Source: Desulfosarcina sp.
Lineage (GTDB): Bacteria; Desulfobacterota; Desulfobacteria; Desulfobacterales; JAFDCJ01
NCBI GenBank assembly: GCA_029288035.1
Contig: JARFPZ010000527.1
Coordinates: forward strand, 1-45,950
Length of the DNA: 45,950 nt
Reading direction: 5' to 3'
The position numbers and the translations under genes are program-made. Positions 9,320 through 35,725 of the stretch are shown piece after piece. The notes beneath the pieces are model-generated. The model was not told the DNA's origin. It did not search any database and saw only the letters and a program-made list of their open reading frames with translations. Position 1 is the stretch's first letter. Each line of letters opens with the position of its first letter.

Positions 9320-10774
9320 TTACTCACTACCATACGACTCTAAAAGTGCCACCATAAACTGCCACACCTTACCAAGAGACGGAATGTAGAGCCCTTCGTT
9401 GGGTGAATGGGGGTCTCTTAGATCCGGGCCAAATGATATCATGTCCATACCCTCGTATTTATCTCCGATGATTGCGCACTCCAGTCCTGCATGAACCGAT
9501 TTAACTTCGGCCTCCCGGTTGAAAACCTGTGTATAAGATTTGCGGCAGCGCTCAAGCAGAGCGGATTGCATATTCGGTGTCCAGGGGGGATATTCACTGT
9601 CGCAGCGGGTGTTCGTGCCGGCAATGGCCGCTGTTGCATTAATGGAATTGGTAATCTCGTCCAACCTTGATTTGGTCAGGCTGCGCTGGCTGGTCAATAT
9701 TTTCAGGGTGTCGTCTATTATCGCAATTGTTGCCAGGTTGTTGGAGGTTTCAACCAAATCGGGGAATACCGCCGACATCCCCATCACCCCATGGGGCAGG
9801 GATAGCAGCAGGTTGATGACGTCCCTTGTTTCCGCCGCGGTCAGCGCTGTTTTTTTCTGTGCAGCGGATTCTGCTGCCGTCAGTTTTATGGCCAAATTAG
9901 ATTCGATGTTGCCATATTCAGTTTGGACGGTGCCTTCGAATTCGGCAACCATCCCGGCCAAGTCACTGGAATTGTCGGCGGCACAGGCGAAGACGGCATC
10001 CGCATCCCGGGCAATGGCATTATGAGCGGTTCCACCTTTGATGGATACCAGCTGAAGGTCGCATGCAACGGCTAGGCGGTGCAGGGTGCGCGCCAGAATT
10101 TTATTGGCGCTGGCCCGCTGCTTGATGATATCGATGCCCGAATGGCCGCCGTGCAATCCGCTGATATTCAAATTGAAAAGTTGACTGCCTTCAGCAATAT
10201 CGGTCAACGTCAGCTTACGGGAGATATGGGTGTGTCTTCCGCCGGCGCAGCCGACAGTGAAAACACCTTCGGTTTCCGAATCAACATTAAGCAGCACCTG
10301 GCCTTCGATGAATCCGGGCTCAAGCTCTTTGGCACCGTTTAATCCGGTTTCCTCGTTCACCGTAAACAACAGTTCCAGGGGCGGATGGGCAACGCTTTCA
10401 TCGCTCGCCACCGCCATTGCCAGCGCCACGGCTATGCCGTTGTCCGCTCCCAGGGTGGTGTTATCTGCCCGCAGCCAATCACCATCGATGATATTTTTGA
10501 TGGGATCTTTGGAAAAATCATGCGTCGAATCCGGCGTTTTTTCGCAGACCATGTCCGTATGGCCTTGAATCACAATGACCGATGCATTTTCATACCCGGG
10601 GGTCGGCGGCACTTTGACCAGCAGGTTGCCTGCGGCATCCTTTTTCACCGCAAACTGTTTTGTCTCGGCCCAATGTTTCAGCCACAGACCTATTTGTTCT
10701 TCATTTTTAGAACATCGCGGGATGGCATTAATCTGTTCGAAGTAGTCTAATATTGATTTTACTTTTTCTTCCAT
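9320..10774 (-). CDS. pepD: Beta-Ala-His/aminoacyl-histidine dipeptidase (M20 family), 484 aa
   Basis: Cytosolic zinc dipeptidase of the PepD type. Metal-ligand motifs visible are GHTDMV (His 72), the bridging Asp in LGADNGIA (about 111), the catalytic NEETG (139-142) and NVDSETEG. The C-terminal SFGPDLRDPHSPNE carries further ligands. Length is normal. The start codon abuts the 102-bp dispersed repeat, whose end supplies the CCAGGAGAG ribosome binding site. First gene of a pepD-glpA unit. Confidence 0.93.
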   Translation of the reverse strand: MEEKVKSILDYFEQINAIPRCSKNEEQIGLWLKHWAETKQFAVKKDAAGNLLVKVPPTPGYENASVIVIQGHTDMVCEKTPDSTHDFSKDPIKNIIDGDWLRADNTTLGADNGIAVALAMAVASDESVAHPPLELLFTVNEETGLNGAKELEPGFIEGQVLLNVDSETEGVFTVGCAGGRHTHISRKLTLTDIAEGSQLFNLNISGLHGGHSGIDIIKQRASANKILARTLHRLAVACDLQLVSIKGGTAHNAIARDADAVFACAADNSSDLAGMVAEFEGTVQTEYGNIESNLAIKLTAAESAAQKKTALTAAETRDVINLLLSLPHGVMGMSAVFPDLVETSNNLATIAIIDDTLKILTSQRSLTKSRLDEITNSINATAAIAGTNTRCDSEYPPWTPNMQSALLERCRKSYTQVFNREAEVKSVHAGLECAIIGDKYEGMDMISFGPDLRDPHSPNEGLYIPSLGKVWQFMVALLESYGSE

Positions 10775-10875
10775 TTAATCTCTCCTGGGTTTAATTCCCC
10801 GCAGCTTGCTGCGATAAAAGTGAGTTGAATCCTAAAAACATGATACTCCGTGGCTTGCCGCGGAGAGATTTCATT
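10774..10875 (-). repeat. Dispersed 102-bp repeat, copy A
   Basis: About 94% identical (six differences in 102 bases by eye) to 35624-35725. Both copies contain two small hairpins (CGCAGCAAGCTGCG and a CCGCGG...CCGCGG-type stem) and end in a Shine-Dalgarno-like CCAGGAGAG facing a - strand gene. Here it sits directly on the pepD start codon. Confidence 0.85.
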
Positions 10876-11244
10876 TTTCCCCTATCGTTTAGCTTCAAAC
10901 CTCGCTGACTAGTTGACTGGTTGATTAGGTATATACTGAAATTCATTTCAGTATGATACGATAGTTGAAACATCAAGTGACCAATTATATTTCAAATATA
11001 GGATGAATCCATATTTGCAACCATTTAACCAATCAACTAATCAACCAATTAGGGCAGTGGCGTGGCTATCAGGAGTGACCGGTTCTGTTTTAGGGATCTT
11101 CGGCCCTCTTGTCAATATTTTACTTTTCGCCTTGATTTTACATATTGACAGATTAATGTTAGGAAATAAAGGCTGTCGAATAATTCCCTGTTTTTCAATG
11201 TCGATCAGGGAATTTCCGGTTTATCCGGCAACGGGGAGGGGAAG
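10876..11244. repeat. Intergenic spacer with inverted repeat and a second dispersed motif
   Basis: There is no gene. The stretch holds a near-perfect hairpin ATACTGAAA-TTCA-TTTCAGTAT (10933-10954) and CGATAGTTGAAACATCAAGT with flanks (10953-10992), which recurs with a few changes at 20017-20056. Short GGTTGATT/AATCAACC strings lie on both sides. A GGGGAGGGGAAG ribosome binding site precedes the gene at 11245. Confidence 0.6.
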
Positions 11245-14025: not shown

Positions 14026-14090
14026 AATGCTGATTTGCTTTATTGGATGTTAAGATCTGTATTACCAACCCGGATAAACCAGATATAATT

Positions 14091-14163
14091 GCCACAAAGG
14101 CACCAAGACACAAACAAAAACTTTTTATGAGAATTTAACTTCGTGTCTTGGTGCCTTGGTGGC
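14091..14163. repeat. Short inverted-repeat element (73 bp)
   Basis: The arms GCCACAAAGGCACCAAGACAC and GTGTCTTGGTGCCTTGGTGGC are complementary over 21 bases with one mismatch, around a 31-base AT-rich loop. It matches a kind of dispersed intergenic element that I associate with this phylum, and it lies between two divergent genes. Confidence 0.8.
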
Positions 14164-14230
14164 GAAAATATTCTGTTAAATAACGTAAACGGAACAAAAT
14201 TAAAAGTCTAAAAAAGGTATGATCGGTTAA

Positions 14231-34888: not shown

Positions 34889-35605
34889 TCATAATTCTTG
34901 ATCAGATGGTACGGCTAAAATACGGGGCAGGCGGACATGGTCCGGCTGTTCCAAAATAAACCGCACTACTCGAGCAATATCTTCCGGTTGCAGCGGCCGT
35001 GGGATGTTGAGGCTCTGGGCCGGTGGAACCGGCCACTCCCGGTGAAGATCGGTCTGCACCAGGCCGGGCTCAACACATGACACGCCGATATTGGTTTTGG
35101 CTAGTTCCAGCCGCAAGGCTTCTGTCAGTGCCTCGATTGCGAATTTTGTTCCGGCATAAGCACCGGCCGTCGGCCGGACTTTTGTGCCGAGCACACTGGA
35201 AGTGTTTAGCAAGTAACCTGAACCGGTAGATTTAAAATGCTTTACCGCAACATAAGCCATCCGAAAAGCGGCTTCCACATTGACTCGCACCATGTAACAC
35301 ATGTCTTCAATATCGATATCATCAATGCTTCCCGCTTTGATAATTCCGGCATTGTTAAAGACGATGTCACAGCGCCCGAAAGTGTCCAAAGCGGCTGCCA
35401 GCAAACTTTGCGGCATCCCATCCTGACTGATATCGCCCGTCAGAATAGCCGCATGCGCTAATTCGTCTTTTAACTCTGTAAGATGATTCTCCCTACGTCC
35501 GGTCAGAATGAATTTTACGCCGACTTCATTCAAATTACGTGCGACGGCCCTGCCAATGCCGCTACTGGCACCGGTAATAATTGCAACTTTGTCTTTTAGA
35601 TCCAT
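34889..35605 (-). CDS. Short-chain dehydrogenase/reductase, 238 aa
   Basis: Classical SDR: cofactor motif TGASSGIGRAVA at residues 11-22, NNAG in VFNNAGIIKAG, catalytic Ser in NTSSVLG and YAGTK for Tyr and Lys. The GRREN stretch after beta-strand 2 suggests NADP(H) preference. Substrate unknown. The 102-bp dispersed repeat lies just upstream, but this gene has its own closer AAGGAGC ribosome binding site. Confidence 0.93.
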   Translation of the reverse strand: MDLKDKVAIITGASSGIGRAVARNLNEVGVKFILTGRRENHLTELKDELAHAAILTGDISQDGMPQSLLAAALDTFGRCDIVFNNAGIIKAGSIDDIDIEDMCYMVRVNVEAAFRMAYVAVKHFKSTGSGYLLNTSSVLGTKVRPTAGAYAGTKFAIEALTEALRLELAKTNIGVSCVEPGLVQTDLHREWPVPPAQSLNIPRPLQPEDIARVVRFILEQPDHVRLPRILAVPSDQEL

Positions 35606-35623
35606 GCTTTGCTCCTTTTTTGG

Positions 35624-35725
35624 TTTAATCTCTCCTGGGTTTAACTCCCCGCAGCTTGCTGCGATAAAAGTAAGTTAAATCCTAAAAACATGATACTCCG
35701 CGGCCTGCCGCGGATAGATTTCATT
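35624..35725 (-). repeat. Dispersed 102-bp repeat, copy B
   Basis: Near-identical to 10774-10875 (see copy A) and in the same orientation relative to the downstream gene. It contains CGCAGCAAGCTGCG and CCGCGGCAGGCCGCGG hairpins on the - strand and ends 18 bases before the SDR start codon. Confidence 0.85.

Follow-up and report, generated by a model that had tools for sequence, protein, structure and literature searches.

A probable transposase-less, IS200/IS605-like mobile repeat in a Desulfosarcina genome, with one end that resembles a ribosome binding site

The 102-bp repeat found twice in the window (the whole 45,950-nucleotide stretch of Desulfosarcina sp. DNA that was analysed) is probably a non-autonomous, IS200/IS605-like (PATE-like) mobile element, which carries no transposase and would be mobilised in trans, as a single strand, by a Y1 (HuH) transposase. 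The host genome holds about 60-70 copies, many more than the two first described, and the family is best explained as an element recently amplified into that number of intergenic sites.

Results

Copies in the window and in the genome

The two copies reported in the first-pass annotation are real and lie on the same strand, and in the minus-strand reading both finish in CCCAGGAGAGATTAAA, toward a gene start.

10774..10875, minus strand: element copy 1, 102 bp counting the target TTAA(A), with 5' end AATGAAATCTCTCC and 3' end AGGAGAGATTAAA
35624..35725, minus strand: element copy 2, sharing 94% identity with copy 1

The element consensus on the gene strand (minus) is AATGAAATCTCTCCGCGGCAAGCCGCGGAGTATCATGTTTTTAGGATTTAACTCACTTTTATCGCAGCAAGCTGCGGGGAATTAAACCCAGGAGAGATTAAA. 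The genome-wide search for copies proposed with the annotation was performed, and at least 40 copies with 91-100% identity were found by BLAST of the host genome and 71 matches at E<=0.001 by a covariance model, which rules out chance likeness. About 58 full-length copies were looked at in detail. The host assembly is a metagenome-assembled genome (MAG) of 6.68 Mb in 689 contigs (93% complete, 6.7% contaminated), in which the repeat is a frequent point of contig breakage.

Every same-genus genome contained diverged relatives of the element, and across the order the hairpin-2 core was found in 24 genomes out of 292, as against none for a reversed-pattern control. Short 52-nt forms with a single fused hairpin were also observed (L197, L211 and L213). 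Neither an account of this repeat family nor the combination of a Shine-Dalgarno (SD) sequence at an element end with one-way insertion at start codons was found in the searchable literature (open-licence papers only).

Insertion at the pepD-like gene and the second copy

9320..10774, minus strand: pepD-like dipeptidase ORF, 484 aa, whose ATG adjoins the element
10782..10786, minus strand: AGGAG in the element end, with no other Shine-Dalgarno near the start codon of the pepD-like gene (sequence)
10879..10883, minus strand: displaced native Shine-Dalgarno AGGGG of the pepD-like gene, about 100 nt upstream of the ATG (L083/L082 empty sites)
34889..35605, minus strand: short-chain dehydrogenase-like (SDR) ORF downstream of copy 2
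35612..35616, minus strand: native Shine-Dalgarno AGGAG of the SDR ORF, kept

The repeat had been described as abutting the ATG of pepD and as supplying its only ribosome binding site, and both descriptions stand: the final base of the repeat doubles as the A of the ATG, and the element end AGGAGAGATTAAATG is, at the sequence level, the sole SD near it. The closest pepD orthologs are from Desulfobacterales MAGs and are 73-86% identical; the repeat-free orthologs L083 and L082 carry AGGGGAGA at the pepD start, and in the window that AGGGGA lies beyond the repeat. Copy 2 sits 18 nt from the start of the SDR ORF, which has its own AAAGGAG.

Other repeats were seen in the window. A second dispersed family (10908-11051; about 140 bp, ends TGGTTGATTAG...CTAATCAACCA) lies directly upstream of the pepD copy and has 41 genome matches at 71-100%. 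An inverted repeat of the CACAAAGGCACCAAGACAC / GTGTCTTGGTGCCTTGGTGG type with 32-nt arms lies at 14083-14171, and element copy L012 is nested in a repeat related to it.

Empty sites and the TTAA junction

That the repeat is mobile, as had been suggested, is borne out by its near-identical copies, by empty orthologous sites and by a fixed TTAA junction. None of about 35 same-genus orthologous regions examined carried the element, and the orthologs of the regions of 11 copies (in up to seven same-genus genomes or two other MAGs) were all without it; the donors of these empty sites are relatives and not ancestors of the host. At the pepD site, relatives have ACGATAGGGGAGAAATTAAATGG and the window has ACGATAGGGGAAA-(element)-ATTAAATGG; at the Ffh site, relatives have GGCAAATTAATTTACTTGAC and the host has ACGAA-(element)-TTTATTTACTTGAC; at the L028 site, relatives have TAAGCATTTAAGAGGAG and the host has TTAGCG-(element)-TTAAAAGGAG. 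TTAA is present once at the site in relatives for pepD, Ffh, L028 and L035.

10775..10778, minus strand: TTAA junction of copy 1 (target motif, kept once and not duplicated; empty-site comparison)
35625..35628, minus strand: TTAA junction of copy 2

Conservation among the copies drops abruptly past TTAA (the fifth base is A in 42 of 50), no shared motif was found in the left flank of the copies, and no target duplication was found for a copy nested inside another dispersed repeat. Because conservation ends after TTAA, the left flank has no motif and the sites are empty in relatives, TTAA is taken to be kept once, on one side, with nothing duplicated, and the empty sites point to insertion directly 5' of TTAA(A). 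Among alignable empty sites, TTAA was exact in about half, and the rest were one or two mismatches off (TTCAAG, ATATA) or too diverged; since some show just TTCAA or ATATA, TTAA is a likely rather than a proven target.

A few right flanks occur with two different left flanks, as in L009 (G000:C106) and L168 (G000:C216), where a single right flank is joined to two left flanks through element copies that differ in their divergence; either gene duplication or an assembly error at the repeat may lie behind this.

Hairpins, element ends and the mobile strand

Each window copy contains the two hairpins that had been noted (fold z = -3.7).

10846..10865, minus strand: hairpin HP1 of copy 1 (CTCCGCGGCAAGCCACGGAG), near-terminal (fold; covariation across subfamilies)
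10800..10813, minus strand: hairpin HP2 of copy 1 (CGCAGCAAGCTGCG), whose sequence resembles that of HP1 (fold; covariation across subfamilies)
35696..35715, minus strand: hairpin HP1 of copy 2
35650..35663, minus strand: hairpin HP2 of copy 2
10862..10870, minus strand: left arm AATCTCTCC, the complement of which is the right end GGAGAGATT (10777-10785; match imperfect)

In 44 diverged copies, 89% of hairpin positions were paired as compared with at most 49% in slid controls, 25 double-change cells were counted as compared with 5.9 +/- 2.0 after shuffling, and the covariation score was 0.182 as compared with 0.088. Covariation of base pairs, named in the first-pass annotation as a check, was seen between subfamilies; within the genome, stem mutations mostly break pairs. 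Such covariation of the hairpins between subfamilies is as would be expected of the ends of a single-strand transposon.

Mismatches in the hairpins, read on the gene strand, were A.C in 42 cases and G.T in 20 (p=0.007, a value that is optimistic because the sequences are related and the cells not independent). A.C mismatches on the gene strand correspond to wobbles on its complement, so that by this count the strand opposite the genes is the better paired of the two. That strand reads TTTAA/TCTCTCCTGGGTTTAATTCCCCGCAGCTTGCTGCG...GATACTCCGCGGCTTGCCGCGGAGAGATTTCATT (the slash marks the junction), and each of the two related near-terminal palindromes has a conserved foot, TTTAATTCC and GATAC. The feet AATTAA and GATAC appear compatible with a role as guide or cleavage site. 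The strand that moves would most likely be antisense to the downstream gene, 5'-TTTAA/TCTCTCCTGGGTTTAATTCC-(hairpin 2)-...-GATAC-(hairpin 1)-AGATTTCATT-3', inserting 3' of a TTTAA/TTAA target without duplicating it.

The arms AATCTCTCC and GGAGAGATT form an imperfect terminal inverted repeat, which would give anti-SD:SD pairing if transcribed. Inverted ends of 7-9 bp are found in the host lineage and also in f51, and are absent from most other subfamilies; in the f51 subfamily (AATCTCCGC/GCGGAGATT) the end pairing is kept with two compensatory changes relative to the host-lineage arms. These 9-bp inverted ends, together with the TTAA junction, would suit a classical MITE that has terminal inverted repeats and depends on a DDE transposase for its movement. 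Such MITEs, however, require a duplicated target, and here TTAA stands on one side only, the left flank is without a motif and the target is not duplicated; in addition, most subfamilies lose the inverted ends but keep the hairpins, making this the least probable of the origins considered.

The predicted SD:anti-SD helix P1 (AAUCUCUCC/GGAGAGAUU) competes with hairpin 1, and its extent differs between copies. An alternative reason for the complementarity may be a junction hairpin in an excised single-strand circle.

Placement at start codons

Gene starts were predicted by a simple home-made gene finder, about nine of the near starts being backed by orthologs, and intergenic TTAAA sites from the same loci as the element copies served as the null. 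Only 2 of 62 of the host's own copies overlapped genes. In 19 of 58 copies a same-strand start lay [-3,20) nt from the AGGAGAG end, as compared with 16 of 378 null sites (OR 11, p=1e-9); the first-pass claim that the ends lie preferentially at same-strand start codons therefore holds for about one third of the copies. Within 30 nt of starts, the ratio of 3' ends to 5' ends was 19:1, as compared with 26:27 for the null (OR 20, p=3e-4), and orientation taken alone was weakly biased over the null (p=0.056). For about two thirds of the copies, there is no same-strand start within 30 nt or the gene that they face is convergent.

Next to these starts, the element end AGGAGAGATTAA, directly 5' of the start codon in about one third of the copies, would act as an SD at usable spacing, so that the downstream gene could still be translated. 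The claim that the repeat places a ribosome binding site on genes apparently applies to about seven near-start copies (pepD included), in which insertion has separated the former SD from the ATG and has left the AGGAGAG of the element as the sole SD; it does not apply to most of them, about 12 having an intact native SD directly 3' of the repeat. The SD segment was not better conserved in near-start copies (3.3% near, 3.7% far), and a promoter search inside the element gave no sigma-70-like match.

An SD motif as part of the target was considered and rejected, as far-from-start copies were SD-like in 4 of 29 cases and null sites in 41 of 468 (p=0.32). AG after TTAA was enriched in copies far from starts (9/29 vs 54/468, p=0.006). 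The near-start excess persists at sites without an SD (8/33 vs 10/437). Because of the excess over TTAAA sites, targeting or positive selection is needed, and the SD motif alone is insufficient. The orientation at starts would readily be explained by selection as a filter, with the SD-bearing end tolerated next to a start and the end bearing hairpin 1 blocking initiation.

For the other tail types (CTCGTCCGCC..., CAGATTTCGCA...), proximity to start codons seems absent, in small numbers. A same-genus subfamily with an extra terminal hairpin (GTCCGCCGCAAGGCGGATTAAA) comprises L195, L196, L198, L200-L205 and L209, and several of its copies are positioned at a convergent gene's stop codon and not at a start. 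A longer subfamily (L175-L177, L181-L183, L216-L220), which has the tail CAGATTTCGCA...TGCGAAATCT and runs on for about 55 nt more, is common in genomes of family f41.

The repeat had also been proposed as a structured RNA leader. In a cis-regulatory leader (riboswitch-like or an RNA thermometer), AAUCUCUCC would pair with the SD GGAGAGAUU in competition with hairpin 1. The stable fold with the SD paired in the minimum free energy structure, the varying balance between P1 and hairpin 1 among copies, the two compensatory P1 changes in another lineage and the sense-oriented, start-proximal third of the copies are consistent with it. A leader is nevertheless very unlikely: within the genome, divergence from the consensus is alike at paired and unpaired positions (5.1% and 5.7%), an Rfam scan of the region gave no match, the host genes as named from sequence are unrelated (dipeptidase, GlnRS, Ffh, dehydrogenases, binding proteins), their orthologs lack the element, about two thirds of the copies are placed away from same-strand starts, and P1 is not complementary in most subfamilies.

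Discussion

Comparison with known mobile repeats

Like IS200/IS605 elements (IS608, IS605, ISDra2), the repeat inserts, with nothing duplicated, on the 3' side of a short AT-rich target and has subterminal hairpins on one strand, with short conserved feet 5' of each, where guides would be; unlike them, it has no tnpA or tnpB, and a search for TnpB-bearing relatives found none. The palindrome-associated transposable elements (PATEs) of Haloquadratum are of IS605 type and without a transposase (PMC3119063). The repeat resembles them in its two related near-terminal palindromes, its length without genes, the lack of target duplication, copies that are more than 90% homogeneous, and degenerate short 'terminal-only' forms of about 52 bp (PMC3119063). 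It differs from them in being bacterial (Desulfobacterales), in having no related IS605 transposon found, in its 7-9 bp inverted ends in the host lineage, classical PATEs having no inverted ends, and in one end that is an SD, with one third of the copies at start codons in a single orientation. Since no related transposon was found and the ends are inverted in the host lineage, the claim is limited to an element that works like a PATE.

Two related palindromes at high copy in intergenic positions are also what REP/REPIN sequences show, and a Y1-type enzyme is plausible for both. Under that alternative, two REP units around a spacer would be mobilised by a RAYT (TnpAREP); eight matches to RAYT-like Y1 genes are present in the genome, and the short single-hairpin forms look like single REPs. 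Y1 proteins encoded by the host include a TnpA (C461), a RAYT (C420) and proteins of about 330 aa. REPs are known for GTAG tags, RAYT association and proximity to the 3' ends of genes (PMC3733652, PMC8266576). The repeat, by contrast, lacks a GTAG or CGTC tag at the foot of its palindromes (consensus and 44-sequence alignment), the conserved feet of the two differ from one another (AATTAAACC and GTATC), and it lies near starts and not near 3' ends as REPs do (PMC3733652). Among about 70 Y1/RAYT loci of the host and related genomes, none has such hairpins in its flanks, no palindromes of the family flank a RAYT gene, and the best RAYT, L108 (G000:C420:2153-2563), is flanked by its own different REPs (GCGGCTGGAAGCCGC). 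A REP/REPIN origin is thus unlikely.

Correia/NEMIS, ERIC and other bacterial MITEs are, like the repeat, mobile hairpin repeats near genes that can end up in leaders. These elements have long terminal inverted repeats and may donate promoters. The repeat differs from Correia/NEMIS and ERIC in having no target duplication or sigma-70-like match and in the SD at its end. Correia elements lie mostly immediately upstream of genes (PMC10969869).

Meaning for the host and the family

For the single-strand element favoured here, adaptation to starts is a tentative and rather doubtful further step, in which orientation-specific targeting of start-proximal TTAA and an SD-bearing end would take over initiation between the SD and the ATG, and the internal anti-SD might tune it. 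If true, a tiny selfish element would bring its own ribosome binding site, and its insertion between SD and ATG would leave a readable gene. A single genome with about 19 leader insertions, for which empty orthologs exist, would offer a natural set for separating targeting from selection and for determining the effect on translation.
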